From the NCBI RefSeq assembly GCF_030540835.1, contig NZ_JAUOEK010000178.1, positions 21,841 to 85,840 on the forward strand: DNA of 64,000 bases, given 5' to 3'. The translations under genes and the position numbers were made by a program. Positions 1,440 to 63,789 of this stretch are shown piece after piece. The stretch is from Flavivirga aquimarina. Its GTDB lineage: Bacteria > Bacteroidota > Bacteroidia > Flavobacteriales > Flavobacteriaceae. Numbering within the stretch: the stretch's first letter is position 1; every line of letters starts with the position of its first letter. The notes beneath the pieces were generated by a model. It saw only the letters and a list, made by a program, of their open reading frames with translations, did no database searches and had not been told where the DNA came from.

Positions 1440-3080
1440 TTATTTAGTACTTAAACTATGCTTGGCGTAATTTAAGCCCAATGCATCATACCGTTCTGCT
1501 AAATGTTTCAAACGCTTGTGAAAATCGTTCCAATTTCTAGAATTTTTTGAAGACCAAACAACCTCAGACAAAGCTGTTAATCTAGGCAAAATCATATACT
1601 CTACATGCTCTGTTGTTTTCATATATTCTGTCCAAACATTACCTTGTGCTCCTAAAATATATTTTTGTTCATCCTCGGTAAGCTCTTTTGGCGTTGGTTC
1701 GTACCCATATACGTCTTGAACGGTTGTTTTACCACCTATAGAGAGCGGTTCATTTTCTTTAACCTCTGTTTGATAAAAGTCAAAATAACAAGAATGTGTG
1801 GGAGTCATAACTACATTGTGTTGATGTTTCGCAGCCTCAATACCTCCTTTTTCACCACGCCACGACATGACGGTAGCGTTTGGTGCTAATCCGCCTTCTA
1901 AAATTTCATCCCATCCAATAATATTTTTTCCTTTTGAGTTTAAGAATTTTTCAATTCTTTTAATGAAATAGCTCTGTAATTCATGTTCATCTTTTAACCC
2001 CTCTCTTTTTATAACATCTTGAGCTAATTTACTTTGTTCCCATTGTAACTTAGGAGCCTCGTCACCACCAATATGAATTAACCCACTTGGAAATAAGTCT
2101 ACGACTTCTGTTAATACATCTTCTAAAAATTGAAAGGTTTCTTCGCTAGGAGCATAAATTTCCGGGAATACCCCCCATCTTGTACCTACTTCATACTGTT
2201 CTCCTGTATTTCCTAATTCTGGATAAGCCGCAATAGCAGCTAAAGAATGCCCCGGCAATTCAATTTCTGGAATTACGGTTACATGCCTTTTAGAGGCATA
2301 AGCAACAATATCTTTTATCTCTTCTTGAGTATAAAAACCGCCATAGCGAACACCGTCATACTTTACATCGTCATTTTTCCATGTATTGCCATGTCCTACA
2401 ATCGTTTCTTTTCTAAAAGCCCCTACTTCGGTTAGCTTTGGATATTTTTTAATTTCTATGCGCCAACCTTGGTCTTCTGTTAAATGCCAATGAAATGTAT
2501 TCATTTTATGCATCGCAATGATATCTATATACTTTTTAATAAAGTCAACAGGAAAAAAATGACGTGCCACATCTAAATGCATACCTCGGTACACATATCT
2601 TGGACTATCTTTAATTTGTGTTGCTGGAATGGTTAATTCAGTCTCTTTATCACTAGATTCAATAGATGAAGGCATTAACTGACGTAAGGTTTGTATACCA
2701 TAAAACACCCCTTTATTCGTTTTTCCTGAAATAGTTATTTGATCGTAAGTAACTGATAAGGTGTAGCCTTCATCATGAACTATATTTTCATCTAATTGTA
2801 AAACAATATTACCTTTAAGGTTTTTAGCATCCTTAAAAGAAATTTCTGTGCCTACTGCATTACTTAACATACCGGAAAGGTAATTACCTTCATTCTCTAA
2901 ATCTGATGTACCAATAATTTTTGTATTAGAATCTATCAAAAACCTTCCTTTTAGAATTTCTAATGATGTTGGTTTTGGTATGATTTGATAATCATCTTCT
3001 GAGTTTACAATATTTTGGTACTGGTTAGCGTATGAAAAAACAGTTGTAAAAGATAGTATTAATAAGAGTATCTGTTTCAT
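1440..3080 (-). CDS. GH20 beta-N-acetylhexosaminidase
   Basis: A 546-residue exo-hydrolase that removes terminal beta-GlcNAc or beta-GalNAc. A signal peptide covers about residues 1-19 (hydrophobic, ending SYA-NQ), so it is exported. An N-terminal GH20b-type domain (about 30-150) precedes the TIM barrel (about 160-500). The barrel shows HWHLTEDQGWR near 197-207 and the catalytic pair Asp340-Glu341 in HIGGDE, used in substrate-assisted catalysis. It lacks the C-terminal accessory domains of the two larger GH20 proteins in the locus. It is the last gene of the minus-strand series, 25 bp after the next GH20 gene. Linkage specificity cannot be read from the sequence. Confidence 0.95.
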   Translation of the reverse strand: MKQILLLILSFTTVFSYANQYQNIVNSEDDYQIIPKPTSLEILKGRFLIDSNTKIIGTSDLENEGNYLSGMLSNAVGTEISFKDAKNLKGNIVLQLDENIVHDEGYTLSVTYDQITISGKTNKGVFYGIQTLRQLMPSSIESSDKETELTIPATQIKDSPRYVYRGMHLDVARHFFPVDFIKKYIDIIAMHKMNTFHWHLTEDQGWRIEIKKYPKLTEVGAFRKETIVGHGNTWKNDDVKYDGVRYGGFYTQEEIKDIVAYASKRHVTVIPEIELPGHSLAAIAAYPELGNTGEQYEVGTRWGVFPEIYAPSEETFQFLEDVLTEVVDLFPSGLIHIGGDEAPKLQWEQSKLAQDVIKREGLKDEHELQSYFIKRIEKFLNSKGKNIIGWDEILEGGLAPNATVMSWRGEKGGIEAAKHQHNVVMTPTHSCYFDFYQTEVKENEPLSIGGKTTVQDVYGYEPTPKELTEDEQKYILGAQGNVWTEYMKTTEHVEYMILPRLTALSEVVWSSKNSRNWNDFHKRLKHLAERYDALGLNYAKHSLSTK

Positions 3081-3105
3081 ATCTATATTTATTTAAAAAT
3101 TTTAG

Positions 3106-5445
3106 TTAATAAATTACAACCTCATCTACCAAAATTCTTGAAGCATTTCCTGCTTGATGATGTCCTTCTGGTATAGGGTTTACACTTTTTGCTTTTATTT
3201 TTATCGATTTTACTAAGATTTTATCAAAACTTATTTCGCTCTTTACTTTATTTCTTCCTTGTGTATGACTCGCTTTGGTTTGATTAATTTTTCCTAATTT
3301 GGTATATGTTTTCCCATCTTGTGAACCAAAAACCTCTATATGTTCTGGTAGATAAACGCTACCAATAGTGAATCGTAAACTAGTCATCATTAATTTTTCA
3401 ATTTCTGTGGGTTGAGGAAAGATGATGTCTACTTCTAAATCCCCTTTTATAGTTTGCCAATTAGAATCCCATCGATGAAGTTTTCCATAATTTAAATCAA
3501 CTAGCTTATCTATTTCATCTGTTCCTTTAGGGTTAGCGGCATCTGAATGATAAATAACTTTAGCTCCAAAAGCTTTGTGTATAGGGAAATGTTTTTTCGA
3601 TATGTTTCCAACTTGTTTTCCATTTAAAAAACTAGTGGTCTTTAATGTCGTTGTTGCATCAATAGAAAACGCCTCTTCATATTTATTTGAACTTAAGGAA
3701 GGTTCACTACCGTCCAAAGTGTAATATATATCTAAACCTTCAGCTTCAGACTGTAAAGAAATATCAATAGCACCTTCTTCATTTCCGCTATGGTTTATTT
3801 TTACATTAAAAGCACTCGTTGCATAACGCACACCTTGCGCATCAAATCGTTTAAATTGGTTAAGCAGTCGTGTCGTAAAACTTTCCCAATTCTTAGATTT
3901 TTCTTGTGTCCAACCATTTTCTGCAATGGCATATAATCTTGGAAAAGTCATATAGGTTAACTTTCCCCAATCACTAATAGATTCTGTCCATAAATTACCC
4001 TGAATCCCCAAAACGTGTTTTCCTTGGGCTTGTGTTAAACTATCTGATATTATTTTATAGGTATAAGTATCTTTTAAAAAACTGTAACTATACCCTAAGT
4101 TAGGTTCTAAATCGTCATCGCCTTGTTTTAAATCTAAATAACAATATTTAGAAGGCGTCATAATGACATCGTGTCCTTCTCTTGCAGCTGCTATTCCTCC
4201 TTTTTCACCTCGCCATGACATGACTGTAGCGTTTGGCGCTAAACCGCCTTCTAAAATTTCATCCCAACCAATCATTTTTTTACCACGTGCATTAATCATT
4301 TTCTCTACACGCTTAACAAAATAACTTTGAAGTTCTTTCTCATCAGCTAAGTTTTCATCTTTTATGCGTTGTTGACAATCGGGGTCTATTTTCCAAGACT
4401 CTTTATTGCATTCATCACCTCCAATATGTACATATTCAAAAGGAAACAAATCCGTGACTTCTTCTAAAACATGTTCTACAAACTCAAAAGTCACCTCTTT
4501 ACCCGGGCAAAGTGTATTGTTCTTCATAACTCCACCAGTGGCAACATAAAATGGGCCACCTGTACACGAAATTTCTGGATAGGACGCTATGGTAGCAAGC
4601 GAATGTCCAGGCATATCTAATTCTGGTATTATTTCTACAAAACGTTCTTTGGCATATGCTACAATCTCTTTAATATCCTCTTGGGTATAAAATCCACCGT
4701 AAGTGGCTTTTTCTCCTTCTTTTTGTACAGGTCTGCCCCACCAATTCGAAATGCTCTCATCTGTAATGTTATAGTCAACGCGCCATGCGCCTACTTCTGT
4801 TAATTTAGGATATTTTTTAATCTCTAAACGCCATCCTTGATCGTCTGATAAATGCCAATGAAAACGGTTTAGTTTAATTTCAGACATATAATCAATGACA
4901 TCTTTAATCTGTTCTTTACTAAAAAAGTGACGAGACACATCTAGCATATGTCCTCTCCATTTAAAAGCAGGTTTATCTTTAATCGTAACAACAGGAACAC
5001 CCCAAACTACATTGTTTTGCTCCTTTTGTGAATAAAATGATGCTGGTAATAACTGTTTTAAACTTTGTAAAGCATAGAAAAAACCAACGCCTGATGCTGC
5101 TTTTATCTGGATGTCTGTTTTATTGATATAGAGTTGATATGCTTCTTCTTCTATAGAACTATCGGTACTAAATACAATATCTCCTTCTCCTTCTCCTAAC
5201 TTAACTTCTGGTATCCATCCCGACACGTTTTTAAATTGATTAAAAAAAGTAGAAGCAATTTCCAATTGCTCCTTATTTTCTACCAGAATGATTGTATTTT
5301 CATTAATTTCAAAATGCCCTTCACCAGCTATTAATTCTGCTGGTAATGGTGTAATAGCTATTTCACCTAATTGTAATTGTTTCTTATTAGTGCATGAAAT
5401 AATAATTAAAGCACCTATGAAACCTAATATTAATTTCTTTTTCAT
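3106..5445 (-). CDS. GH20 beta-N-acetylhexosaminidase, lipoprotein with C-terminal accessory domains
   Basis: A 779-residue protein with a lipoprotein signal (IIISC, Cys18), so probably attached to a membrane and perhaps surface-exposed. The order is a GH20b-like domain (about 28-155), a catalytic barrel (about 160-530) with HWHLSDDQGWR near 196-206 and catalytic Asp344-Glu345 in HIGGDE, and a short beta domain around 550-615 with YYTLDGSEPS, typical of the chitobiase/hexosaminidase C-terminal domain. A final region (about 635-779) resembles an F5/8 type C (discoidin-like) carbohydrate-binding fold. Close in sequence to the preceding 546-residue GH20. It starts 4 bp after the stop of the upstream GH92 gene, suggesting co-transcription. 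Confidence 0.95.
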   Translation of the reverse strand: MKKKLILGFIGALIIISCTNKKQLQLGEIAITPLPAELIAGEGHFEINENTIILVENKEQLEIASTFFNQFKNVSGWIPEVKLGEGEGDIVFSTDSSIEEEAYQLYINKTDIQIKAASGVGFFYALQSLKQLLPASFYSQKEQNNVVWGVPVVTIKDKPAFKWRGHMLDVSRHFFSKEQIKDVIDYMSEIKLNRFHWHLSDDQGWRLEIKKYPKLTEVGAWRVDYNITDESISNWWGRPVQKEGEKATYGGFYTQEDIKEIVAYAKERFVEIIPELDMPGHSLATIASYPEISCTGGPFYVATGGVMKNNTLCPGKEVTFEFVEHVLEEVTDLFPFEYVHIGGDECNKESWKIDPDCQQRIKDENLADEKELQSYFVKRVEKMINARGKKMIGWDEILEGGLAPNATVMSWRGEKGGIAAAREGHDVIMTPSKYCYLDLKQGDDDLEPNLGYSYSFLKDTYTYKIISDSLTQAQGKHVLGIQGNLWTESISDWGKLTYMTFPRLYAIAENGWTQEKSKNWESFTTRLLNQFKRFDAQGVRYATSAFNVKINHSGNEEGAIDISLQSEAEGLDIYYTLDGSEPSLSSNKYEEAFSIDATTTLKTTSFLNGKQVGNISKKHFPIHKAFGAKVIYHSDAANPKGTDEIDKLVDLNYGKLHRWDSNWQTIKGDLEVDIIFPQPTEIEKLMMTSLRFTIGSVYLPEHIEVFGSQDGKTYTKLGKINQTKASHTQGRNKVKSEISFDKILVKSIKIKAKSVNPIPEGHHQAGNASRILVDEVVIY

Positions 5446-5449: not shown

Positions 5450-7675
5450 TTATTTTTTTATCAGCTCTTTATTTGGTTTGCTTCCCAATATATAATGAAG
5501 TTTTCCTCCTTGCATAATTTGCTTATGGTTTAAAGTCAACTTATCATAAGGTTTTCCGTTTAATGTTATGGATTGTATATAAAAATTTGCTTCTGTTTGG
5601 TTTTCTGCAGTAATAATGAATTGTTTTCCGTTTTCCAGTTTAATTATGGCTTCTTCATAAAGCGGTGATGTTAAACTATAAATGCCATTTGCCGGGTTGA
5701 TTGGATACATACCCATTGCTGAAAAAACCAACCATGCAGACATTTGCCCACAATCTTCATTACCACAATAACCGTTTGGTTTTGTACTGTATTGAGTTTC
5801 TATAATTTTACGAACCATTTGCTGCGTTTTCCAATGTTTTCCAATGTTATTATATAAATAGGAAACATGGTGACTGGGTTCATTTCCGTGGGCGTATTGA
5901 CCAATCATTCCTGTACTAAAAATAGGTAATTTGTCTTCTGCTGTTGGATAATACGTGAACATAGAATCTAATTTAACGGCAAACTTCTCCTTACCTAATG
6001 TGTTTATTAACCCATCTATATCGTGTGGCACAAACCAGAAATATTGCCATGCATTGCTTTCGCAAAACTCTCTGGTATATTCTTTTGCCGAAAATGGTGA
6101 ACCAAAATTTCCTTGTGCATCTTTAGGTCTAAAAAATGTTGAGGAATCGTCATAAAGGTTTTTCCAGTTGTTTGCTCTTTTTGAAAACGTTTTTTCTATG
6201 TCATTTTCCCCTAGTGCCTTAGCTAGTTGTGCGATACACCAATCATTATAAGCATATTCCAATGTTTTAGACACCGACCAGTTTTCGTGATTTTCTCCTG
6301 TTGGAACATAGCCTAATTCCATATAGGTATCTATTTGTCTGCCTTTTTCGGTAGCTGATGCGACACAAGCTTCTAAGGCTTTTTTTGCATCTATAGGAAT
6401 GTTTTTAAAATAGGCATCTACTATAACAGGAACGGCATGATACCCTATCATCATATTGGTTTCATTCCCTGCCAAAGACCACACTGGAAGTAACCCTGTT
6501 TCGTCATAATGCGATAAAAAGGATTTAACCATATCTTCCGTTTCTTCTGTGTTTAAAATGGTATATAGCGGATGTGTGGCCCTAAAAGTATCCCAAAGTG
6601 AAAATGTATCGTATTTGTTATAGCCATTAGCTGTATGAACCTTCCCATCGGCTCCTTTGTACGCACCATCTACATCACTATGCAATGATGGTGTTAAAAA
6701 ACAATGGTATAGATTTGTATAAAACAATTCTTTTTGAGACTCTGTTCCTTTTATTGTTATTTTAGATAAATACTGTTCCCATTTTGTTTCTGCTGCCGTT
6801 ACTGTTTGCTCAAAATTCCAATCTGGTAATTCTGCTTCTAAGTTTTTTCGAGCTCCGTCTATACTTGCTGAGGACAAAGCTACTTTTACCAATATTTTTT
6901 CATCGGTATCCGTCTTATAGTTAGCCACTATTCGGGTAAACTTTCCATTAACACTACTTGAGTCTTTTTCTTTTGAATTTTCAAACAATTGTATGCTATC
7001 AATAGGTTTTGAAAATTTCATTACAAAATACACGCGTTGGTCTCTTGCCCATCCTTTCGACTTTCTATATCCTGTAATGGTTTGTTTATCTTCAATAGTA
7101 ATTTTTGTATCTACTGGGGCATCCCAGTTTAAACTGTAACCCAAATCGAGTATGATTTGGCTTTTTTCATCCTTAGGAAATGTATATTGATGAAAGCCTA
7201 CGCGGGCTGTTGTTGTTAGTTCTACTTTAATTCCTGAGCTTAATAAATCTACCGTATAATATCCCGGACTCGCTTTTTCTTGATTGTGTGAAAACTTTGA
7301 ATAAGGTCTGTACCTTCCTTCGGGAGTCAAACTTTCGGTAAACCTGCTATTTAAAGGCATTAATAACAAATCATACATATCGCCTGCTCCGGTTCCAGAA
7401 AGATGTGTGTGGCTAAACCCTGCTATAGTTGAATCTGGCCAAAAATAGCCTGCAATTCTATCCCACCCCGGGAGTCCGTTATCTGGACTTAATTGTACCA
7501 TTCCAAAGGGTAAAACAGCGCCCGGATAGGTGTTTCCTGGACCATCTGTTCCTGTAAAGGTATTTACATAACTCGTTAACCCCTTTATTTTTTTAGTTTC
7601 GGGTTTCTTTTCTGTTTTACATGAAAAAAAACCTAAACATAATGTTAGTAATAATAGATAATTGTAACCCTTCAT
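5450..7675 (-). CDS. GH92 alpha-mannosidase, lipoprotein
   Basis: A 741-residue calcium-dependent exo-alpha-mannosidase family protein. The lipoprotein signal ends LGFFSC. The N-terminal beta-sandwich opens with VNTFTGTDGPGNTYPGAVLPFG, a family hallmark; the C-terminal alpha/alpha barrel carries HGNEPSHHVSY (Glu about 599, candidate general acid) and GNEDCGQMSAW (638-648, with the Asp of the base site). The HH and GNEDxGQ forms resemble the alpha-1,2-mannosidase branch, but linkage is an inference. It lies between a GH20 gene and an unrecognised TIM-barrel-like gene. It is one of five GH92 proteins in the window, with particularly strong similarity to the pair at 51101-53365 and 59525-61780. 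Confidence 0.95.
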   Translation of the reverse strand: MKGYNYLLLLTLCLGFFSCKTEKKPETKKIKGLTSYVNTFTGTDGPGNTYPGAVLPFGMVQLSPDNGLPGWDRIAGYFWPDSTIAGFSHTHLSGTGAGDMYDLLLMPLNSRFTESLTPEGRYRPYSKFSHNQEKASPGYYTVDLLSSGIKVELTTTARVGFHQYTFPKDEKSQIILDLGYSLNWDAPVDTKITIEDKQTITGYRKSKGWARDQRVYFVMKFSKPIDSIQLFENSKEKDSSSVNGKFTRIVANYKTDTDEKILVKVALSSASIDGARKNLEAELPDWNFEQTVTAAETKWEQYLSKITIKGTESQKELFYTNLYHCFLTPSLHSDVDGAYKGADGKVHTANGYNKYDTFSLWDTFRATHPLYTILNTEETEDMVKSFLSHYDETGLLPVWSLAGNETNMMIGYHAVPVIVDAYFKNIPIDAKKALEACVASATEKGRQIDTYMELGYVPTGENHENWSVSKTLEYAYNDWCIAQLAKALGENDIEKTFSKRANNWKNLYDDSSTFFRPKDAQGNFGSPFSAKEYTREFCESNAWQYFWFVPHDIDGLINTLGKEKFAVKLDSMFTYYPTAEDKLPIFSTGMIGQYAHGNEPSHHVSYLYNNIGKHWKTQQMVRKIIETQYSTKPNGYCGNEDCGQMSAWLVFSAMGMYPINPANGIYSLTSPLYEEAIIKLENGKQFIITAENQTEANFYIQSITLNGKPYDKLTLNHKQIMQGGKLHYILGSKPNKELIKK

Positions 7676-7731: not shown

Positions 7732-9402
7732 TTAATTACTTCTTAATTTATTTACTTTAAGGTGTGCATTATTTGCAATATGTCTCTTATATTCTTGTGT
7801 ATAAAGTGTTGCTATTGAACTATATTTTTTTGCAAGCTTATTGTAATCTTTCCATGCCTTATCATACGCTTTAATCCATTTTTGAACTTCTTTGGTATCT
7901 TCTTTAGCTTCTGCATGTTTCATATAGATAAGCGTTCTATATATTTTATACAACTTTAATCCATATTCTGCAGATCCTACGGCATGATTTTTAGCGTCTT
8001 CATTTTGCCAATCAATTGATTTAGCCAACTTAACTATTTCTTTCCATTTTGCTATCGATTCATCTTTTTGAACCAAATTTCTTTCTTGTTCCAAGTCACC
8101 TTTTACTACCATTGGCCATGCAATACCTTGGTCTCTAGTCCACCATGGATTCATGTCCCTATAAGTACTATTTCTTCCTCTAACTACTGCTTCTGCAGAA
8201 AGTAAACATAGCTTTCTAAACTTAGCAATATCATCACCTTTTAAGTTTAAACGTTCTGTTGCATATCTGTTAAAAATAAATTCTTCGCTTTTATCGGTGT
8301 TTTGCCCCCATTGTGCCATAACCCAAGAGTTTAAATCGCACCACAATTCGTCTTTTATATAAGGACCATCCCATCCTCCTCCACGAGACCATGTCCAAAT
8401 ACCAGCATATAATTCAGGTTTTGTTTCTACAAACTCTCTAATACTATTTATTCGCTCTTCTGGCATTCTAGCATGTTCTTCGAAACCTTCAATAACACCA
8501 TTTGCAATATAATTAGGATAAGCGCCTTTTCCTTCATATTCGCGAGCAGATTGAACCTCAATAATTTGACGATGGCGTCCTTGGCCTATGACTTTACTAA
8601 ATGCGTTAGATCTATGAAAATCCCCTTCACAATGTTTGATACTAATAATTAAATTTTCATGTGGTTCTATAGCATTACTTACTTTCATGTAAGTTTTTAG
8701 ATTCCTGTCGAATGCTCCCCAGGTTCTGAAAATAAGTTGTTTATCTCTTTTTTCGCAAATCTCTTCTTTTAAGATCTTAATTAAAGGAATAATGGTTTTT
8801 TCTGCATTCATTTTCTCATCAATTGCTCCAAGATGATATGGTGCATCGTGTAAATAAGTTTCTCCTATACGAACAACTAGTCCATCTAGATCTGGAAACT
8901 GATCGAACATTTCATTAATTTGAGCTCTGATCAGTTTTTCGGTCAATGTATCGTTAGGGTTTCCAAATGTTTCTTTAATATTATATTTTTCAATCAATCT
9001 TTTTGGAAACAAAACAAGATCAGACATAGCATAAATGGCCATATCTTGTTCTTTACATGCTGCATGCATTTGTTTTATTTGTTTGGCTTTTTCATCTACC
9101 CATTTACGATCATCAGATCCTTTAGGTAAAATATCTGCATCTACAGACTCCCAATTAATAGCTAATGCTGGAGATTCAAAAAGAAAATAAACCTTACCAT
9201 TATACCCCATTTCTTTTATAATAGCTGGGTTATTGTACTTAGATTCATATGGAGCCTCTCCAGGGTTATGGTGAACCATATCTAAAATTAAAGGGGCTGA
9301 CGTGTTTTTCTTATTTTGACCAATCACTTTTGTCCCCAATGCACTAAAGACTATTATAAAAAACAGGACTCTTTTAACTAAATTTAATTCTTTTATATTC
9401 AT
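7732..9402 (-). CDS. Secreted protein of unrecognised family, possible TIM-barrel glycoside hydrolase
   Basis: A 556-residue protein with an N-terminal hydrophobic signal (about residues 12-28, ending VIG-QN). I do not recognise the family. It has features of a (beta/alpha)-barrel sugar hydrolase: strand-like segments ending in acidic residues such as LDGLVVRIGETYLHD (about 175-189), LIFRTWGAFDR and IISIKHCEGDFH, plus a tryptophan-rich stretch YAGIWTWSRGGGWDG. The C-terminal 130 residues look helical and rich in lysine. The overall style recalls alpha-glucuronidase-like (GH67-type) barrels, but this is weak. Its place between GH92 and GH20 genes suggests a role in glycan breakdown; the Glu in RIGETY would be a first candidate catalytic residue. 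Confidence 0.7.
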   Translation of the reverse strand: MNIKELNLVKRVLFFIIVFSALGTKVIGQNKKNTSAPLILDMVHHNPGEAPYESKYNNPAIIKEMGYNGKVYFLFESPALAINWESVDADILPKGSDDRKWVDEKAKQIKQMHAACKEQDMAIYAMSDLVLFPKRLIEKYNIKETFGNPNDTLTEKLIRAQINEMFDQFPDLDGLVVRIGETYLHDAPYHLGAIDEKMNAEKTIIPLIKILKEEICEKRDKQLIFRTWGAFDRNLKTYMKVSNAIEPHENLIISIKHCEGDFHRSNAFSKVIGQGRHRQIIEVQSAREYEGKGAYPNYIANGVIEGFEEHARMPEERINSIREFVETKPELYAGIWTWSRGGGWDGPYIKDELWCDLNSWVMAQWGQNTDKSEEFIFNRYATERLNLKGDDIAKFRKLCLLSAEAVVRGRNSTYRDMNPWWTRDQGIAWPMVVKGDLEQERNLVQKDESIAKWKEIVKLAKSIDWQNEDAKNHAVGSAEYGLKLYKIYRTLIYMKHAEAKEDTKEVQKWIKAYDKAWKDYNKLAKKYSSIATLYTQEYKRHIANNAHLKVNKLRSN

Positions 9403-13898: not shown

Positions 13899-13966
13899 TA
13901 CTTTTCTTGTATAGGAATCTTTATTAAGAGAAAAAATTAGTTTAAATCTTATAAAAGCTACGATTA

Positions 13967-29544: not shown

Positions 29545-29637
29545 GTTCTGTATTAATTTTATGAATTTGCTCATTATCGGTATCAATTAATTTTAATAAT
29601 TCCCTTAGTTATGATCTGTTATTTGCTTAATAATGAT

Positions 29638-46958: not shown

Positions 46959-46965
46959 ATTTAAT

Positions 46966-54293: not shown

Positions 54294-57200
54294 ATGAAAA
54301 TCAAATTAAACAATAGCTTTTTATTCTTAAAAAGAAGGCTATCCATTCTCATTATGAGAATCTTTATTTTTTTGGGCTTTACTACAGCTTTTGGTTTTTC
54401 GCCAAATAACGTAATAGCATCAGAAAATATTAATAATAATTTACAACAACAAATTAGTGGTACTGTTACAGATACCAACGGCCAACCAATTCCAGGTGTT
54501 AATGTTCTAGAAAAAGGCACTAATAATGGTGTTTATACAGATTTTGACGGTACATTCTCAATAACTTTACAAAATCAAAATTCTACATTAGTATTATCTT
54601 ATATTGGATTTATAACTAAAGAAGTTGCTGCTAACCAAAATAGCATAGCCATAACTTTAGAGGAAGATATATCTGTCCTTGAAGAAGTGGTTGTAGTAGG
54701 TTATGGTACACGAAAAAAAGCAACTGTAACGTCTGCAGTTGCACAAATAGACTCTGAAACTTTTGAAAACAGAGCTATTGCAAGTGTATCTAATGGCTTA
54801 CAAGGAGCTGTTTCAGGACTTCAAATTACAAACTCTGCTAATGGTGGTGAGCCAGGAGCTACACAAAATATCAACATTAGAGGATTAATGACTGGTACTC
54901 TCAATAATGATGGAACTACAGGTATAGGAAATGCTGGGCCTTTGGTACTTATAGATGGTGCGGTGATGGATATAAACGACATTAACCCAGAAGACATTGA
55001 AACTGTTACGGTACTAAAAGATGCCGCTTCTGCATCTATTTATGGTTCTAGAGCTGCTGCTGGTGCTATTCTAATAACCACTAAAAGTGGTAAAGATATG
55101 AAAGGCGGTATGAAAGTTAACTACTCTAACAACTTCTCCTTTTCTACCTATACGCAGTGGCCCGATCAAACTGACGCATTGATTTATACGACTGTAATGA
55201 ATGAAGCAGGCTTTAATAACACGGGTCGTAACAATGTTTTTTTTAGTGAAGACGCTATTGATAGGATAGAACAAAATATAGCTGTGCCTGGTAGCGCACC
55301 AACATTGATTACTAAAAATAATGATCTAGACTGGGATGTAAGTAGTGGCGGCCTTTATGCTAGTGGAAATACCGATTGGAAAAAATTTCTTTTTAATGAT
55401 TTTGCAGTAAAATCTATACACAACCTAAGTTTTAGAGGTGGTGATGAAAAATTAAATTATTACATATCGGCAGGGGCTTACTCAGAAGACGGTTTATTTA
55501 AAGTCGCAGAAAACACTTTTGACAGATATAATTTAGATGCAAAAATAGCTGCAAAACCTTCGGAATGGTTAGCATTCGAACTTTTAACTAAACTACAAAG
55601 AAGTGATGCCGTGTTCCCTTGGGATCCCAATTATGGTAGAGGTAGAGTATTTGATCAATTATCAAAACTAAAACCTACCATGCCTACTGTAGACCCTATT
55701 TATGGAGAACCGCTTCCTAATGCGTATTATCCTGCTTGGCAGCACTCCAGTGAAGTCAACACAAAAAACCAATTAGTTTTACTGCCTAGAATTGTTATAG
55801 AGCCTTTTAAAGATTGGCTTATTAACTTAGAATACAACTATAGAACAAATAACAATAAAACGGTTTATTCTACTTCACAATACGAATCACTACGTCCAAA
55901 TGGTGATACCAAAATCGAAATTTCAAGAGATCAAACTCGTGTTACTCCTACATTAGCTACCAATGATTATTGGTCTCCAAATTTATATACCAGTTACAGT
56001 AAATCAATAAAAGGACATAATTTTGACGTAACCGCTGGGTATCAAAGTGAACGATATAATGTATACAACTTAAATGCAAATGCATATGGTTTATTATCGG
56101 ATAATGTTACAGCGATATCTGCTGCCGTAGGTGAACAAACAGTTTCTGATGATATTTCTCATTGGTCAACAGAGAGTGTATTTGGTAGGTTTGGTTATAA
56201 TTATGAAGGAAAATATATAGCAAGGGTAACTTACCGTAGAGATGGTTCCTCAAAGTTTGAATCTGGTAACAGGTGGGCTGGTTTTCCTTCTTTTGAGTTA
56301 GGCTATAACGTAGCAAAAGAAAACTTCTGGCCAATTGAAGATATTAGTATGTTTAAGCTACGCGCAACTAAAGGTTCTCTTGGAAATCTAAATGTTGCTA
56401 ACTATTTATATGTACCTAGAATCCCAGTTGCTAATGGTTTTTATCTATTTAATGGAGAAAGAGAATATACTGCTAACGTGCCAGACCTAACAAGTATAAA
56501 CCTTACATGGGAAACCGTTAAAACTACCGACATTGGTATCGATATTTTAGCATTAAATAACAAATTAGGCTTTTCTTTTGATTGGTACCGTTCAGATATT
56601 GAAGACATGGCTACTACAGGCGTATCTTTACCTGCTACACTTGGAACAGAATCTCCTTTTATAAACGGCGGTATTACACGAACTCAAGGATGGGAAATCG
56701 AAGCAAATTGGCAACAAACATTAGGTAATTTTAAGTATAGCATTAGAGCTACACTCTCAGATTATAAACAAACCATAGTAGATTTTCCTAATGAAACAAA
56801 ATTACTAACGGACTTTTACACAGGGAGAGATCTTGGAGATGTATGGGGATTAACTTGGGAAGGTTGGTTTACAAGTGACCAAGAAGCCTTGGATAGAGAG
56901 TCTATTGTAAATCAAAGATGGGTGCATAACAGTCAATTTGGTGAAGGAGATACTAAATACGTCGATATAAACGGTGATGGTGTTATTAACAATGGTTCGG
57001 GAACAGTAGATGATCATGGTGATTATACTGTAATAGGAAATACCACTCCTAGATACCAATATGGAATTACGCTTGGTGCTAGTTGGAAAGGTCTTGACTT
57101 TAGCATGTTTGTACAAGGTGTAGGAAAAAGAGATATAGCACCACTAACCAATGCTTATAAAAAACAATTTTTAGGGCCGGCTCAGGGGCCATTCCACTCT

Positions 57201-57584
57201 AATGTATATGCTGAACATTTAGACTATTATAGACCTGAAGATACCTCAAGTCCTTTAGGATCAAATACAGATGCTTATTTTGCCAGACCTTATGCTGTGA
57301 ATAATGGTAAAAATAACAGAAATTACTCAAGACAAGTAGATCGTTATATACAAAATGGTGCATATGCTAGATTAAAAACAATACAACTTGGATATACAAT
57401 TTCTAAAAAAATAACTGATAAGTATAATATTGATAGATTTAGAATATTTGTTACAGGAGAAAATGTTTTAACAGTATCTGATCTTTTGTTTTATGATCCA
57501 GAATCAGTTGCAGGTGAGTTTAGTGGTGGTTCATCTTACCCCTTGTCAAAAGTTTTTTCAACAGGAATTAATATTTCATTTTAA
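54294..57584 (+). CDS. SusC-like TonB-dependent outer-membrane transporter
   Basis: A 1096-residue protein, normal length for SusC family. The N-terminus has a signal with a long N-region (about 1-43, NVIASEN), followed by a carboxypeptidase-regulatory-like domain (about 50-130, QISGTVTDTNGQPIPGVNV), the TonB-box-like EEVVVVGYG and the plug domain (about 145-265, with NINIRGLMTGT and VLKDAASASIYGSRAAAGAI). The remainder is the 22-strand barrel, ending in an aromatic residue (ISF) as expected. It imports oligosaccharides through the outer membrane with its SusD partner, 15 bp downstream. This is the only SusC in the window, although it is divergent from the enzymes. Confidence 0.97.
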   Translation: MKIKLNNSFLFLKRRLSILIMRIFIFLGFTTAFGFSPNNVIASENINNNLQQQISGTVTDTNGQPIPGVNVLEKGTNNGVYTDFDGTFSITLQNQNSTLVLSYIGFITKEVAANQNSIAITLEEDISVLEEVVVVGYGTRKKATVTSAVAQIDSETFENRAIASVSNGLQGAVSGLQITNSANGGEPGATQNINIRGLMTGTLNNDGTTGIGNAGPLVLIDGAVMDINDINPEDIETVTVLKDAASASIYGSRAAAGAILITTKSGKDMKGGMKVNYSNNFSFSTYTQWPDQTDALIYTTVMNEAGFNNTGRNNVFFSEDAIDRIEQNIAVPGSAPTLITKNNDLDWDVSSGGLYASGNTDWKKFLFNDFAVKSIHNLSFRGGDEKLNYYISAGAYSEDGLFKVAENTFDRYNLDAKIAAKPSEWLAFELLTKLQRSDAVFPWDPNYGRGRVFDQLSKLKPTMPTVDPIYGEPLPNAYYPAWQHSSEVNTKNQLVLLPRIVIEPFKDWLINLEYNYRTNNNKTVYSTSQYESLRPNGDTKIEISRDQTRVTPTLATNDYWSPNLYTSYSKSIKGHNFDVTAGYQSERYNVYNLNANAYGLLSDNVTAISAAVGEQTVSDDISHWSTESVFGRFGYNYEGKYIARVTYRRDGSSKFESGNRWAGFPSFELGYNVAKENFWPIEDISMFKLRATKGSLGNLNVANYLYVPRIPVANGFYLFNGEREYTANVPDLTSINLTWETVKTTDIGIDILALNNKLGFSFDWYRSDIEDMATTGVSLPATLGTESPFINGGITRTQGWEIEANWQQTLGNFKYSIRATLSDYKQTIVDFPNETKLLTDFYTGRDLGDVWGLTWEGWFTSDQEALDRESIVNQRWVHNSQFGEGDTKYVDINGDGVINNGSGTVDDHGDYTVIGNTTPRYQYGITLGASWKGLDFSMFVQGVGKRDIAPLTNAYKKQFLGPAQGPFHSNVYAEHLDYYRPEDTSSPLGSNTDAYFARPYAVNNGKNNRNYSRQVDRYIQNGAYARLKTIQLGYTISKKITDKYNIDRFRIFVTGENVLTVSDLLFYDPESVAGEFSGGSSYPLSKVFSTGINISF

Positions 57585-57605
57585 AATTTAATTTATAATA
57601 TGATT

Positions 57606-59306
57606 ATGAAAAAAATATTTTATTTTCTAACAATATGCTCGGTACTTTCATTAGTGTCGTGTGACGATGATTTATTAGAGAGAACACCTCTAGACGAAAT
57701 ATCTGAGCCAGAATTCTGGAAAACAACAAGTGATTTAGAGTTATATGCAAACTCCTTTTATAATAAATTACCAGGATGGTCTGGTGTAGGTTTTGGTAGT
57801 GCTCAAATGCCAGATGTTGGTACAGATTTAGGAATGGGAACGGGGATATCATCTAGATTACATGGAACTCAAGGCATCCCTACCAGCAATACTAATTCTC
57901 TTTGGAGTTGGGATGAAGTAAGACAAGTTAATTACTTCGTATCAAATGTATCTAAAGCTGAAGGTTTAGAGGCTGATATTAATCAATTTACAGGCGAAGG
58001 TTATTTCTTTAGAGCCTATTTTTATTATGATTTATTAAAAAAATATGGTGACTTACCTATTTATGAAGAGTATTTTGATAATTTAAATACAGACGCGTTA
58101 TATAGAGCTAGATCGCCACGTAATGAAGTAGCTGATTTTATGCTTGCAGATCTAGATAAGGCAATTTCATTACTTAAACCCAAAAGTGAGCTTGTAGCTC
58201 CTCGTGTAAATAAAGAAGCTGCTCAATTGTTAAAAGCAACGATTGCACTTTATGAAGGCACCTGGGAAAAATACCATAATGGGACCGCTTTTGGCGTAGC
58301 AGGCTCAACGGGCACTACTTATTTAGAACAAGCTGCCGATGCTGCTAAAGATCTTATAGATGGAGGGACAAGAACTCTAAATCCAAGCTATGGCGATTTA
58401 TTCAACCAAACAAACCTAAGTACTAATAGCGAAATTATTCTTTGGAAAGAATATGATTTTGTTGGTTTAGGAAATTCTTTTGGTAATGATGCACAACTTA
58501 GTTGGCCAAATAATTTTTCTTATTCATTAGATGCCATACGCAGTTACTTATGTATAGATGGTTTACCTACATCTGAAAGTGCTCTACCCACAGATGATAC
58601 TATGCTAGCGAACATTGAAACAAATAGAGATCCAAGGCTTGCAGAAACACTTATGGTTCCTGGAGATGTAACTGTTGTTAATATTGATGGCTCAATGACA
58701 TATTGGACAGAGCCAACAGTAGGTGAAAGTGTGGGAGCGTATGAGTCTCAAAAATATAGAATTACGACATTAGATGCTTCTACTAATGATTATAGCAGAA
58801 ATACTGCAAAAATTATTATGAGATATGGAGAAGCATTACTTATCTATGCTGAAGCTAAAGCTGAATTAGGGACTATAACACAAGGTGATTTAGACATTTC
58901 TATCAACAAATTACGTGATAGAGCAGGTATGCCTGATCTAACCTTAAATCCTATTACAGACCCTAATTGGCCAGATTATGGTCACACTTTAACACCTATT
59001 ATTCAAGAAATAAGAAGAGAAAGAGTGGTCGAGTTAATGAATGAAGGCTTTAGATTAGACGACTTAATGCGTTGGAGAGCACATAACCTTTTTGTAGGCA
59101 AAAGACCAAAAGGAGCTTATTATGAGACTTTAATATATAATGTAGCACAAAACCTAGCAGTTGATGCAAATGATTACTTAGATCCATATTCTGTAGATCT
59201 TGCAAGTGGTTATGGTTTTGATCCAGATCGAGATTATTTACTTGCAATACCTTCGGAAGAATTGGTACTTAACCCTAACTTAGAACCTCAAAATCCAGGA
59301 TGGTAA
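57606..59306 (+). CDS. SusD-like surface glycan-binding lipoprotein
   Basis: About 566 residues from the Met at 57606 (an ATG two codons upstream is in frame at 57600). The lipobox LSLVSC is followed by Asp residues, a common export signal to the cell surface in Bacteroidota. The protein shows the SusD/RagB pattern: N-terminal ERTPLDEISEPEFWKTTSDLELYANSFY, TPR-like helices with GEGYFFRAYFYYDLLKKYGDLP, and the C-terminal SusD domain with EIRRERVVELMNEGFRLDDLMRW. It caps the SusC barrel and holds the glycan. A strong terminator follows. Confidence 0.97.
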   Translation: MKKIFYFLTICSVLSLVSCDDDLLERTPLDEISEPEFWKTTSDLELYANSFYNKLPGWSGVGFGSAQMPDVGTDLGMGTGISSRLHGTQGIPTSNTNSLWSWDEVRQVNYFVSNVSKAEGLEADINQFTGEGYFFRAYFYYDLLKKYGDLPIYEEYFDNLNTDALYRARSPRNEVADFMLADLDKAISLLKPKSELVAPRVNKEAAQLLKATIALYEGTWEKYHNGTAFGVAGSTGTTYLEQAADAAKDLIDGGTRTLNPSYGDLFNQTNLSTNSEIILWKEYDFVGLGNSFGNDAQLSWPNNFSYSLDAIRSYLCIDGLPTSESALPTDDTMLANIETNRDPRLAETLMVPGDVTVVNIDGSMTYWTEPTVGESVGAYESQKYRITTLDASTNDYSRNTAKIIMRYGEALLIYAEAKAELGTITQGDLDISINKLRDRAGMPDLTLNPITDPNWPDYGHTLTPIIQEIRRERVVELMNEGFRLDDLMRWRAHNLFVGKRPKGAYYETLIYNVAQNLAVDANDYLDPYSVDLASGYGFDPDRDYLLAIPSEELVLNPNLEPQNPGW

Positions 59307-59524: not shown

Positions 59525-61780
59525 TTATTGGTTTCCGTTTTTAATAATCCCCCAATTTTTATTAGGTGTATCTCCCATAATAAAATGAAGTGTCCCTCCA
59601 TTTAATAGTGTTGCATTAGAAATTATAGTTTGATTGAACAATCTACCATTGAGTGTTGCTGATTGTATATAAATATTTTTATCTGAAACATTTTCAGCTT
59701 CAATGACGAAGGTTTTTCCATCTGAAACGTTAATGATTGTTTTTTCATAAAGAGGGCTTCCAATTTCATATTCGGTTGACGCTGGGTTCATAGGATATAG
59801 CCCCATAGAGCTTAATACATACCATGCACTCATTTGTCCGCAGTCTTCATTTCCACTTAAACCATTTGGTGTTGTGTTGTATTGCGTATCTAAAATATAC
59901 CGCGACCAATACTGCGTACGCCATGGTTTATTGGCATGGTTAAATAAGTACGCTATATGGTGGCTTGGTTCGTTACCATGCGCATATTGTCCAATTAAAC
60001 CGGAAATATCTGCTGAAACATTTTTCCCGGTAATTTCAGAACTTTCGGTAAACAACTGTTCTAAACGGTTAGTAAACGTTTCATTACTTCCATGAAGGGA
60101 AATAAAACCTTTAACATCGTGCGGTACAAACCAACTGTGTTGCCACGCATTCCCTTCGGTATAATCGGTATGTTCTCTATGATTGGAATATTTAGCATCA
60201 AAAGGTTCGTTCCACGATGTGCCATCTTCGGACTTTCCTCTCATAAAACCGGTTTCGACATCGAATAAATGCTGATATGCTTTAGAGCGGTTTAAAAAGA
60301 ATTTATAATCGGCTTCCTTCCCTAAAACTTTAGCCATTTGTGCCACACACCAATCATCATAAGCATATTCTAATGTAATAGTAACCGATTCGTCTAACAG
60401 ATTATAAGGAATATACCCATGTTTTTTATAATGGCCTAAACCACGTTCGTCCTGCATCATGGTGATTTTCATAGCTTGATAGGCTTTTTCGGCATTAAAG
60501 CCTTTAATTCCTTTTAGGTATGCTTCAACAATCACAGGAATAGAATGATAGCCTGTCATGGTATTTGTTTCATTCGCATAAAGTGTCCAAACCGGAAGTA
60601 TTTTTTTTGTTTCGTAATAAGAAAGCATCGTGTTTATTATATCGGCAACTTTATCTGGAGCTATTAACGTTAATAATGGATGTTCTGCTCTAAAAGTATC
60701 CCAAAGTGATAAGGTTGAATATGCAGTATAATTGTTAGCTGTAACGATACTATCATTCTCTTTTCTATACTGTCCGTTTTTATCACTATAGGTTACAGGT
60801 GCCAATTGTGCATGATACATGGCTGTGTAAAAAATGGTTTTTAGTGAGTCTACAGAAGTTTCAATCTTAATTTTAGACAAAGCATCATTCCAAGTATTTT
60901 CTGCTTGTTCTTTTACTGTGTTAAAATTAAAAACTCCACTATCTAAATTATCTTTTGCATTATCTATACTTACTGAGGATAATGCTACTTTTGTAAGTAA
61001 TTCATTACCTGCATTGGCATTAAAAAACAATTGTGCAGCAGCTTTTACACCTTGACCCTTATTTTCTTTAATCGCTTTTTTATCTGTAACTATATTATAT
61101 TTAATTATTGGTTTAGAAAACTTTGCAACAAAAAACACCTTTTGGTTTTTTGCCCATCCTTTACTAAAACGATAACCACTTATTGTATAATCATCTTCTA
61201 TTTTTAAAGCTGTATTTGTCGCTTTATCCCAATTAATAGCAAAACCTAAATCTATAACGACAGATTGTGTATCGTTTTCTGCATAGGTATATTTATGAAA
61301 CGCCGTGCGCAATGTTGTTGTTAGCTCTACATTTACTTCATGATCTTCAAGAAATACTTGATAATATCCTGGACTTGCTTTTTCATTAGTATGGCTATAG
61401 GATGATTTATAAGGAAGTGAATCGCGGGAGGTAGGCATCTCAGATAAGTCTAGGTCTTTATTTACTGGCATAAATAACACATCGGCTAAGTCGCCAATAC
61501 CGGTTCCACTCAAGCTTAAATGGCTAAACCCTACTGCTATAGAATCGGAATAATGATACCCAGAACACCAATCCCAACTGCTAATACCATTTACAGGGCT
61601 AACCTGGACCATTCCAAAAGGAACTGTTGCCCCTGGATACGTATGACCGTGACCACCAGTACCAATAAATGGATTTACATGTTTTATTAATCGTTCTTCA
61701 CTTTGGTGCTTTTTCTCGATATTTTTTTTGCAACTAGTCGTTGAAATTATTATTAGAAAAAATAGAGTAATATTTCTCAT
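59525..61780 (-). CDS. GH92 alpha-mannosidase, lipoprotein (right paralogue)
   Basis: About 751 residues from the Met at 61780, which opens a lipoprotein signal (ITLFFLIIISTTSC); the frame is open to 61822. The family start HVNPFIGTGGHGHTYPGAT, HGNEPSHHIAY and GNEDCGQMSAWY are complete, so it should be active. It closely resembles the GH92 at 51101 throughout, including the ending NKNWGI. It is separate from the long series, lying between the susD terminator and the kinase gene, and is probably transcribed alone from the conserved block at 61855-61900. Retaining both paralogues suggests dosage or differing specificity. Confidence 0.95.
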   Translation of the reverse strand: MRNITLFFLIIISTTSCKKNIEKKHQSEERLIKHVNPFIGTGGHGHTYPGATVPFGMVQVSPVNGISSWDWCSGYHYSDSIAVGFSHLSLSGTGIGDLADVLFMPVNKDLDLSEMPTSRDSLPYKSSYSHTNEKASPGYYQVFLEDHEVNVELTTTLRTAFHKYTYAENDTQSVVIDLGFAINWDKATNTALKIEDDYTISGYRFSKGWAKNQKVFFVAKFSKPIIKYNIVTDKKAIKENKGQGVKAAAQLFFNANAGNELLTKVALSSVSIDNAKDNLDSGVFNFNTVKEQAENTWNDALSKIKIETSVDSLKTIFYTAMYHAQLAPVTYSDKNGQYRKENDSIVTANNYTAYSTLSLWDTFRAEHPLLTLIAPDKVADIINTMLSYYETKKILPVWTLYANETNTMTGYHSIPVIVEAYLKGIKGFNAEKAYQAMKITMMQDERGLGHYKKHGYIPYNLLDESVTITLEYAYDDWCVAQMAKVLGKEADYKFFLNRSKAYQHLFDVETGFMRGKSEDGTSWNEPFDAKYSNHREHTDYTEGNAWQHSWFVPHDVKGFISLHGSNETFTNRLEQLFTESSEITGKNVSADISGLIGQYAHGNEPSHHIAYLFNHANKPWRTQYWSRYILDTQYNTTPNGLSGNEDCGQMSAWYVLSSMGLYPMNPASTEYEIGSPLYEKTIINVSDGKTFVIEAENVSDKNIYIQSATLNGRLFNQTIISNATLLNGGTLHFIMGDTPNKNWGIIKNGNQ

Positions 61781-61854
61781 AAAATGATTATACTGTTTAA
61801 TATATAATATATAAAAATTCATAAATTTAACCAGTATTAAAAGTAATAAAGTAA

Positions 61855-61900: not shown

Positions 61901-61919
61901 TACAAATCATTCTTAAAAA

Positions 61920-62993
61920 ATGAATTTTAACTCCAGACAACTCTATAAAGTATCACTTATTCATCATATCATTTTTTGGTCTGTATATTTTCTTTTTAAT
62001 TTTTTTAGATGGGGAAGCTATTTTAGCGAGGTTAAAGAACTACCTTACTTATACTCTTTAAGAACTAATTTATTAGGGTTTCCAATACATATGATTTTAT
62101 GTTATTTAAACATCTATGTTTTAATGCCAAAATTAGCTTTTAAGAAAAAGTACATATCGTATATATTTTTAATATTATCTGCCATATTTTTGATGGTTCT
62201 TGTTAAATTTAATTTGACCTACTATCTAGTTAGTACCGATGTCTGGCCTGAAGGTCCAAAACCTATCAGTAATATAACTCTTAACTATGCGATTGAAATG
62301 ATGATTGGTGAGCTTTATGTTATTACGTTTGCTACCGCTATTAAAATAACTTTAGATTTTTTAAAAGAGCATAAAAGAGTAGCCGATTTAGAAAAAGTAC
62401 AACTAGAAACTGAGCTCTTGTTTTTAAAAACCCAAATTTCACCTCATTTCTTTTTTAACACGCTTAATAATATTTATTCTTTAGCGGTAGAAAAATCTAA
62501 AAAGACACCCAAAATAATTCTAATGCTATCAGAATTAATGCGCTATCTACTTTATGAAACAAAGAACAAACAACAGTCTTTAGAGAATGAAATACTTTGT
62601 ATTCAAAATTATTTGGATTTAGAACGTATTCGACATAACGAGAATTTAGAGGTAAACATGTACATATCTGGGGATATACAGGATAAACATATAGCCCCTA
62701 TTTTATTATTATCGTTTGTAGAAAATGCTTTTAAGCATGGCGCTTATAAAAATATAGGGGAAGTAAAAATTAATATTAATTTAATAATTAAAAAAGATTT
62801 TCTTTATTTTACAATCTCTAATCCTATGCCCAAGTTAACAGAACATAAAGAATCTTTTAACCATTCAAGTGGTATTGGCCTTGAAAATGTAAAGAAACGA
62901 CTAGCTTTAGGATATAAAGAAAATGACTATAAACTAACTATTGGAAACAAAAATAATTTATTTGTGGTGAAACTTAAAATTAAAGTATCATGA
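61920..62993 (+). CDS. LytS/YehU-type sensor histidine kinase
   Basis: A 357-residue membrane sensor. Four hydrophobic segments (about 13-28, 47-66, 78-97 and 122-145) lie before a short coiled linker and the His_kinase domain, with the phospho-acceptor His176 in QISPHFFFNTLNNIYSL. The ATPase part shows SFVENAFKHGAYK (N box, about 265-277) and SGIGLENVKKRL (G box, about 318-329). It has no large periplasmic sensor domain, so how it perceives its signal is unclear. The response regulator follows 85 bp downstream. A truncated duplicate of this gene lies beside susC. Confidence 0.95.
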   Translation: MNFNSRQLYKVSLIHHIIFWSVYFLFNFFRWGSYFSEVKELPYLYSLRTNLLGFPIHMILCYLNIYVLMPKLAFKKKYISYIFLILSAIFLMVLVKFNLTYYLVSTDVWPEGPKPISNITLNYAIEMMIGELYVITFATAIKITLDFLKEHKRVADLEKVQLETELLFLKTQISPHFFFNTLNNIYSLAVEKSKKTPKIILMLSELMRYLLYETKNKQQSLENEILCIQNYLDLERIRHNENLEVNMYISGDIQDKHIAPILLLSFVENAFKHGAYKNIGEVKININLIIKKDFLYFTISNPMPKLTEHKESFNHSSGIGLENVKKRLALGYKENDYKLTIGNKNNLFVVKLKIKVS

Positions 62994-63078
62994 CATAATC
63001 CATAAAAGCCCTAACTACCAATTAAGATATTTGATAACAAATTACATCTGACCAATGTAAATAATAAATTTAATACAG

Positions 63079-63789
63079 ATGAAAGTAAAGTGCCTTATTA
63101 TTGATGATGAGCCTTTAGCAATTAATGTTATTAAAAACTACTTGCTACAGATAGATGATTTCGAAATTTCCGAAACATTTAATAATGCTATTGATGCTTT
63201 AAATTTTTTAAAAAGCAATACTGTAAATGTTATATTTTTAGATATTAACATGCCCGTGCTTGACGGTATAAATTTTATAAAAAGCTTAGAAGATCCTCCT
63301 TTGTTAATTATTACTAGTGCTTATGATGAATTTGCTTTAGAAACTTATGAGTTAGATGTCTTAGATTACTTAATTAAACCTATAGAGTTCCCAAGGTTTA
63401 TGAAAGCTTTAAATAAGATAAACAGAAGGTTGGAAAACAATAAAGTTGTTAGTGATACGACTAAAGATCGTCCTTATCTTTTTATTAAAATTGATAAAAA
63501 GAAAATGAAAAAGATTTTTTTAGATGAGATATTAACGGTAGAATCGTTAAAGGATTACCTAAAAATTAACACAACTACTGGTAAATATATTATACACAGT
63601 ACCCTGTCTGATTTCACAAATTTATTGCCTAGTAAAGATTTTATAAGAATACACAGGTCTTATACCATTGCTATAGACAAAATAGATGCTGTTGAAGGTA
63701 ATAGTGTAGAAATTGAAGGTCTTAGATATGTTATTGGCAGATCGTATATTGAAGAAGTAAAACAAAAAATCTTAAATTCTTCTATATAA
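63079..63789 (+). CDS. LytTR-family response regulator
   Basis: A 236-residue DNA-binding regulator. The receiver domain (about 1-120) has CLIIDDEP with the acidic pocket, phospho-acceptor Asp55 in IFLDINMP, and the conserved SAYDEFALE and LIKPI with the switch Lys. The LytTR domain (about 133-232) shows FLDEILTVESLKDYLKI and FIRIHRSYTIAIDKID, as in LytR/AlgR proteins. It pairs with the kinase just upstream. No other transcription regulator (HTCS, AraC, ECF sigma/anti-sigma) is present in the window, so it is the best candidate for control of susCD and the enzyme series, which remains an inference. Confidence 0.95.
   Translation: MKVKCLIIDDEPLAINVIKNYLLQIDDFEISETFNNAIDALNFLKSNTVNVIFLDINMPVLDGINFIKSLEDPPLLIITSAYDEFALETYELDVLDYLIKPIEFPRFMKALNKINRRLENNKVVSDTTKDRPYLFIKIDKKKMKKIFLDEILTVESLKDYLKINTTTGKYIIHSTLSDFTNLLPSKDFIRIHRSYTIAIDKIDAVEGNSVEIEGLRYVIGRSYIEEVKQKILNSSI

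Follow-up and report, generated by a model that had tools for sequence, protein, structure and literature searches.

Which glycan is taken up with a gene cluster that joins mannosidases, fucosidases and sulfatases to an enzyme acting on asparagine-linked N-acetylglucosamine (Asn-GlcNAc)? This question is raised by a stretch of 64,000 bases in the 5.29-Mb draft genome of Flavivirga aquimarina (bases 21841-85840 of NZ_JAUOEK010000178.1, a contig of 85,840 bases; hereafter the window, with positions counted from its first base), where 33 genes lie side by side between 1440 and 63789. Most of them are similarly arranged in eight other genomes. A SusC-like TonB-dependent transporter (54294-57584, plus strand) and an adjacent SusD-like glycan-binding lipoprotein (57600-59306, plus strand) are surrounded by members of GH20, GH92, GH29, GH95, GH3, GH30, GH130 and the S1 sulfatases, which by gene content makes the cluster a predicted polysaccharide utilization locus (PUL). 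Five of the seven GH92 matches and five of the 38 S1 matches of the genome fall inside the window, a gathering that exceeds chance. A sequence-only reading of this DNA had listed one glycosylasparaginase (AGA), one GH130, five GH92, three GH20, three GH29, one GH95 and five S1 sulfatases with a single SusCD pair, and this inventory holds: all these enzymes are present with strong Pfam scores or motifs, and the one SusCD pair occupies 54294-59306. Beyond that list lie two GH3 genes, a GH30, a GH141-like beta-helix, an esterase-like protein, GHL10, CBM9, a sodium:solute symporter (SSF), a histidine kinase (HK), a LytTR response regulator (RR) and two glycosidase-like proteins without a Pfam family; with GH3, xylose had been overlooked.

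We think it rather likely that the locus encodes one import-and-digest pathway, built from two modules (A and B), for N-glycans that carry sulfate, fucose and probably xylose. Gene content, gene order, eight other fused loci, modules existing separately and PNGase F in related loci are matters of observation, and it is plausible that sulfate and several fucoses decorate the same N-glycan.

The probable N-glycan core, module A

Module A comprises GH92, SSF, GH130, CBM9, GHL10, AGA and the sensor/regulator pair. On the minus strand these are GH92c (42568-44811), AGA (44832-45842, with a Tat-like signal), the putative glycosidase GHL10 (45849-47000, lipoprotein-like; Pfam 43 bits), a CBM9-like lipoprotein (46966-48036; Pfam 49 bits), a GH130 phosphorylase without a visible signal peptide (48046-49011) and the SSF symporter (49223-51100; Pfam 92 bits), while the HK (61920-62993) and the RR (63079-63789) stand on the plus strand. 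AGA scores 405 bits against the glycosylasparaginase of E. meningoseptica (3ljq) and at most 124 bits against isoaspartyl peptidases, and Thr191 at its cleavage site is preceded by His-Asp; it is the predicted Asn-GlcNAc-acting enzyme of the window. The GH130 is of UhgbMP type (nearest structure 4udg, 507 bits), and such a putatively core-specific phosphorylase together with five GH92 enzymes fits an N-glycan locus, their linkage specificities being predictions.

In the family, 265 of 397 genomes contain an AGA relative (E 1e-60). We examined 53 AGA loci, the window included, and counted 50 of them after exclusion of three below 60% identity. GHL10 and CBM9 are each present in 41 of the 50, GH130 (counted at at least 70% identity) and SSF in 39 each, the RR in 34, the HK in 33, at least one GH92 gene in 40, at least one GH20 gene in 31 and PNGase F in 15; the stretches span about 7-76 kb, and absences in the short ones are weak. 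As controls served 20 loci (19-20 kb) with AGA relatives of 53-58% identity, chosen from the listed lower-identity matches rather than from all of them: at the same thresholds, none contains GHL10, CBM9, GH130, SSF, HK, RR, GH20 or PNGase, and a GH92-like gene is found in one. Outside the window, the best AGA matches were also viewed in short stretches of 2.5-4 kb, and all 29 of these hold a GH92, GH20 or GHL10 gene. The PNGases of the Flavobacterium algicola MBE-1 locus and of the G121 locus (genomes are given by our own handles) each possess both N-glycanase domains by Pfam, and PNGase F adjoins GH92c in these two as well as in G321 and G335, i.e. in four of the eight other loci that resemble the window. 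Because PNGase and AGA have a common target, the Asn-GlcNAc bond, this gene neighbourhood strongly supports feeding on N-glycans as the role of module A. In 34 of the 41 AGA loci with GHL10, the fetched stretches are free of S1 genes.

Beside the G323 locus lies a gene (L131:6077-8002) in which a glucosamine-6-phosphate isomerase domain is fused to a PIG-L deacetylase domain, and an 85% relative of it is located on another contig of the F. aquimarina genome. Neighbours of the G323 and G121 loci include a glucosamine-6-phosphate isomerase-type protein and a sugar-permease-type MFS protein, with relatives in 12 and 6 of the 50 AGA loci, respectively.

Module B, the fused loci and the proposed pathway

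Module B consists of SusCD, sulfatases, GH29, GH95, GH92, GH20 and sometimes GH3. All five window sulfatases (minus strand) have an intact C-x-P-S-R motif and are distinct, as had been claimed, with pairwise identities of 22-38%. Called by the nearest solved structure, S1e (40951-42558, CAPSR) is of the GlcNAc-6-sulfatase type (7p24, 602 bits; GlcNAc-6-sulfatase 5g2v, 554 bits) and S1c (30246-31841, CTPSR) of a hexose-6-sulfatase type (exo-L-galactose-6-sulfatase 7lha, 405 bits; 5g2v, 352 bits), and S1a (20142-21629, CTPSR) comes nearest to S1_15-type 6-sulfatases (7oze, 238 bits; S1_15A 9bas, 226 bits; GalNAc-6-O-sulfatase 6s20, 218 bits). For S1b (25849-27216, CSPSR), steryl-sulfatase/arylsulfatase A lead at about 258 bits with several families close behind, and S1d (36151-37662, CSPSR) reaches 166 bits at best, with 5g2v. 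The fucosidases, again on the minus strand, are GH29a (16446-17750; Pfam 335 bits), GH29b (34492-36144; 281 bits), GH29c (39864-40928; 297 bits) and a GH95 of the alpha-L-fucosidase/galactosidase type (27223-29586; 570 bits). GH92b (17768-20107, minus; Pfam 506 bits) and GH20c with a PA14 domain (9427-11727, minus; 371 bits) belong to module B, too.

Relatives of S1d (E 1e-150) were found in 12 of the 397 genomes, the window's own included, and eight of these 12 (own, G323, G229, G173, G348, G121, G321, G335) have both modules in one locus; F. algicola, from another search, adds a further one, making nine fused loci in total. All five sulfatases are kept at 67-89% identity in all eight fused loci other than the window's. 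The same eight retain, at 60% or more, GH95, GH3a, GH92a, GH92b, GH92c, GH92e, GH20c (69-74%), GHL10, CBM9, GH130, the HK (77-80%) and the RR (82-90%), although the GH92a copy of G335 (62%) adjoins AGA and may be a different gene. Other genes vary: the seven other fused loci apart from G229 contain GH30 in all seven, GH29b and the GH141-like gene in six each, GH3b and the esterase-like and GH67-like genes in five each, GH29a and GH29c in four each and the 710-residue protein U710 in one. G229 has GH29a and GH29b from this variable set, and its module B enzyme genes are inserted between CBM9 and GH130 of module A. In a tree of GHL10, GH130 and CBM9, limited to 39 loci with all three markers and not including G229, eight fused loci including the window form one clade with support 1.0.

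Module B also occurs apart from module A, namely in three of the 12 genomes (G212, G236 and G011). A GH130 relative was not found in G236 and G011 at E 1e-40, and in G212 separate contigs carry module B and a core-like locus (GH92c, CBM9, GH130, SSF, HK, RR), in which no GHL10 or AGA was seen within 16 kb. The module B of G236 (L263, L264, L271) has all five sulfatases and GH3a, those of G212 and G011 have S1a-S1d without S1e or GH3a in 40 kb, and all three retain GH92 and GH20. The free-standing modules of G236 and G011 (L265, L266) each possess their own SusCD. From this gene content, module B can presumably work without module A. In the twelfth genome, G238, the S1d relative (about 52%) lies in a different gene context. 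SusC and SusD of the window's sole pair are 52-53% and 56-57% identical to those of G236 and G011 (32-36% for the pair of G212), and because of this resemblance to B-only loci module B is the probable origin of the pair. Within the window's own genus, the genomes G019 and G248 possess module A and PNGase, no sulfatases in the fetched stretches and no S1d relative (E 1e-150), and in the core tree they branch at a great distance from the window; for this reason, the fused locus was probably gained horizontally.

In the proposed pathway, SusCD would import glycopeptides or glycans through the outer membrane, and the five sulfatases (two nearest to hexose-6-sulfatases, one nearest to enzymes for 6-sulfated Gal/GalNAc, two unassigned) would strip the sulfate that would otherwise block exo-enzymes. 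GH29 and GH95 might take off fucose, including any core fucose that would block AGA, and beta-xylose would fall to GH3, for which GH3a (23158-25836, with PA14, xylosidase/glucosidase-like, ISD nucleophile motif) and GH3b (31860-34472, beta-xylosidase-like), both on the minus strand, are candidate beta1,2-xylosidases whose best NCBIfam model stays under its own cut-off (for GH3b NF041776 Xyl3A, 1052 bits against 1250). Antennal HexNAc would be removed by GH20, represented besides GH20c by GH20a (1440-3080; Pfam 409 bits) and GH20b (3106-5445; 406 bits, with an Fn3-associated domain and a lipobox), both minus-strand genes with an HIGGDE motif. The GH92 enzymes, among them GH92a (5450-7675; Pfam 602 bits), GH92d (51101-53365; 70% identical to GH92e) and GH92e (59525-61822; 582 bits), all on the minus strand, are predicted to pare mannose down to the beta-mannosyl core. 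To cleave the Asn-GlcNAc bond, the window would rely on AGA and most relatives on PNGase, AGA or both; GHL10 is the best candidate for endo-cleavage of the chitobiose core. SSF could carry the short core saccharide to the cytoplasm, where GH130 would phosphorolyse Man-beta1,4-GlcNAc(2), and the HK/LytTR pair would be the switch. Sulfated N-glycans are known from marine animals and arthropods (PMC6994554), and GlcNAc-6-sulfate of N-glycans is described as the substrate of a gut sulfatase (PMC8379841).

The minus-strand run from 53365 down to 1440 comprises 28 genes with gaps of at most 75 bp, except for 659 bp (29587-30245) and 211 bp (49012-49222). At the place of the 659-bp gap, an additional sulfatase gene is present in several relatives; a decayed sulfatase was looked for in the gap itself, and neither this nor any other gene relic was detectable. 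Further genes of the run are a GH67/GH138-like TIM-barrel protein without a Pfam or NCBIfam family (7732-9402), the GH141-like right-handed beta-helix protein (11775-13979; match below cut-off), an esterase/peptidase S9-like alpha/beta hydrolase (13967-16432) and GH30 (21646-23082; Pfam 137 bits; closest solved structure 5ngk, 156 bits). The GH67-like family is common in marine Flavobacteriia, with two copies in at least one genome and 62-85% identity to the window protein among 41 aligned homologues. U710 (37702-39834, minus) is glycosidase-like with invariant Glu and Asp residues and a pLDDT of 93, lacks a Pfam or NCBIfam family and matches folds of the GH20/GH84/GH67/GH115 kind at clan level. 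The idea that it is an N-glycan-specific endo-enzyme was weakened by its occurrence in one of the 397 family genomes (the own one) and one of the eight other fused loci, while relatives from gut, rumen, freshwater and marine bacteria stand in dissimilar neighbourhoods. At the place of U710 between S1d and S1e, G173 has a DUF5703 protein with weak GH95 similarity (L138:9060-11357), and G348 and G335 have open reading frames of similar start at this place, the G173 copy being the one scanned. The locus is adjoined by a thioredoxin-reductase-like gene (177-1127); in G348, a gene that begins almost identically is located past the opposite end of the locus, which perhaps hints at a shared insertion site. 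The contig ends 211 bases past the LytTR gene (63790-64000), and further locus genes may sit on another contig.

Release from asparagine and rival substrates

A number of observations weigh against a single pathway for sulfated N-glycans. The F. aquimarina genome has no PNGase F match, versus 94 of the 397 family genomes with one, and no GH85 was found in it, so that release in the window would rest on AGA or an unproven endo-enzyme. The F. algicola locus is without AGA and SSF, and in G229 the genome is without PNGase and the locus without this type of AGA, an AGA of 55% lying elsewhere. Module B exists apart from A, without a GH130 relative in G236 and G011 and away from the core in G212, and might therefore act on something other than the N-glycan of module A; two of these three genomes (G212, G011) show four sulfatases in 40 kb, S1e missing, and a second SusCD pair stands at the loci of G323 and F. 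algicola, as two substrates would need. Moreover, the roles given to the enzymes are predictions, the sulfatase positions are nearest-structure calls with S1b and S1d lacking an assignable position, and Pfam scans of the window proteins contain no galactosidase family, with which an oyster-type sulfated N-glycan would fit poorly.

PNGase, GH18 and GH85 were considered as the releasing enzyme of the window and rejected as absent from the genome or unfitting: the one GH18, on another contig, has 603 residues and a transmembrane-like end and by eye looks unlike an enzyme for N-glycan release, and no PNGase remnant was found in the window (best tblastn E 0.25). Among the nine fused loci, four have PNGase (F. 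algicola, G121, G321, G335) and seven this type of AGA (window, G323, G121, G173, G348, G321, G335); F. algicola has PNGase at the locus and an AGA of 61% elsewhere. In lysosomes, a fucosidase acts first and glycosylasparaginase then cuts Asn-GlcNAc. By analogy, and because GH92c and S1e are 9 bp apart in the window where four relatives carry PNGase, the window may have lost PNGase and AGA may take over after proteolysis and defucosylation. GHL10, kept near AGA in most loci and present in all nine fused ones, would by its position be our best guess for an additional endo-cleavage; comparison with solved structures gave no match. A relative of it is presumably E. coli DigH, whose family is not stated in the relevant passages of the paper.

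The PNGases of related loci may also tell something about the core fucose. In an alignment of 16 of them, one column holds Asp in all 15 short proteins and Gly in the single 567-residue one, and if, as we infer, this is the column described by Crouch 2022 (PMC9522356), Asp marks group 1, of which the tested member was inactive on plant N-glycans, and Gly group 2. Because the short PNGases carry Asp, core alpha1,6-fucose or none would be favoured, hence animal-like over plant-like glycans. Beta1,2-xylose can accompany core alpha1,6-fucose in snail N-glycans (PMC8699351), and sulfate has been reported both on mannose and on core fucose in N-glycans of lobster and insects, and in oyster on galactose (PMC6994554). 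Algal N-glycans are possible substrates as well.

An unlikely but serious competitor is that two substrates are served, module A acting on ordinary high-mannose or paucimannose N-glycans and module B on another sulfated and fucosylated glycan of the same food particle (a free polysaccharide, O-glycan or matrix glycan), both being joined for co-regulation. This would explain the B-only loci with their own SusCD, the separate contigs in G212, the sulfatase-free core loci (34 of 41) and the additional SusCD pair at the loci of both G323 and F. algicola. However, module B carries enzymes for mannose and HexNAc (GH92, GH20) in all three genomes where it stands apart, the five sulfatases are kept in eight of eight other fused loci, B is nested within A in G229, and the window has a single SusCD pair, with the proviso that the contig stops shortly behind the regulator gene.

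Much less probable is the substrate proposed for those Polaribacter and Formosa PULs that are rich in GH92 and sulfatases, namely sulfated alpha-mannan or glucuronomannan from diatoms or brown algae. Several GH92 and up to six sulfatases mark those PULs, which are described, however, with GH2, GH3, GH43_2 or GH88 and a distant GH99 (PMC6298971, PMC6794258). The window's 34 scanned proteins, 33 of them from the locus, gave no match to GH76, GH99, GH125 or GH88 (Pfam, E 0.001), and the window has AGA, three GH20 and a UhgbMP-type GH130, while related loci contain PNGase. A plant-type N-glycan locus resembling that of Bacteroides massiliensis (core alpha1,3-fucose, beta1,2-xylose, Lewis a antennae) is more improbable still. 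GH3, GH29, GH92 and GH130 agree with the set of that species, in which a sulfatase gene likewise stands with GH3 and GH2, but its PNGase belongs to group 2 (Gly), unlike the 15 of 15 Asp-bearing short PNGases above (PMC9522356). The window contains no GH2 and its genome no PNGase. Nor do we know of a role for five sulfatases on known plant N-glycans.

The sequence-only reading had proposed a sulfated, multiply fucosylated N-glycan. Its N-glycan part is borne out by the recurring AGA-GHL10-CBM9-GH130-SSF-GH92 core and by PNGase F in 15 of 50 loci, while sulfate and fucose on the same glycan is a step we infer, module B being separable in three genomes. The fullest form of the two-module pathway falls somewhat short of an even chance: a complete route for marine eukaryotic N-glycans that bear sulfate, xylose and several fucoses, in which a desulfating and defucosylating operon was fused into a widespread core operon and PNGase was dropped in favour of lysosome-like release by AGA. 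The locus and its relatives provide a defined and conserved enzyme set, one of them in F. algicola MBE-1, that makes the question testable. If the pathway is real, protein-bound sulfated glycans would be a dedicated marine carbon source besides algal polysaccharides, and the enzymes would act on sulfated, xylosylated N-glycans, for which analysts lack tools. PULs with GH92 and sulfatases need not indicate sulfated mannan.

Comparison with known systems

Lysosomal breakdown of N-glycoproteins is alike in its order, fucosidase before glycosylasparaginase, and differs as a process of a eukaryotic organelle without SusCD import or phosphorylase. Among bacterial systems, the B. massiliensis pathway for plant complex N-glycans shares GH92, GH29, a GH3 xylosidase, SusCD with an N-glycan-releasing enzyme, GH130 in loci of related species and one sulfatase gene with GH3/GH2; its genes are spread over several loci with a group 2 PNGase, whereas the window has one contiguous locus with five sulfatases, GH95 and AGA and no PNGase (PMC9522356). 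In the B. thetaiotaomicron PUL for high-mannose N-glycans, a GH92 set likewise acts after import, but a surface GH18 releases the glycan, and the relevant passages describe no sulfatase, fucosidase or AGA for it (PMC10154615). The same 2023 review regards CAZymes for N-glycans of algae, molluscs and similar sources as yet to be discovered.

Our literature searches did not find glycosylasparaginase together with polysaccharide utilization, and PNGase, sulfatase and polysaccharide utilization combined with marine returned the gut system only. The closest marine counterparts are two kinds of PUL. Sulfatase-free GH92/GH130/GH20/GH18/CBM9 PULs of marine Flavobacteriia (Krueger 2019, PMC6794258) resemble module A in GH92, GH130, GH20 and CBM9; they differ in having no sulfatases and in being classed under alpha-mannose-rich substrates, and AGA, GHL10 and PNGase are absent from the relevant passages. 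The Type A PULs of Polaribacter and Formosa (Kappelmann 2018, PMC6298971) likewise combine several GH92 with several sulfatases, and a glycoprotein substrate has been suggested for them, but they contain GH2, GH3 and GH88, glucuronomannan was proposed, and GH20 does not appear in the main text. As far as these accounts go, each of the two kinds corresponds to one half of the locus described here. Thus, the kind of locus is known, whereas the combination, its conservation and its make-up from two modules appear to be new within the literature searched.

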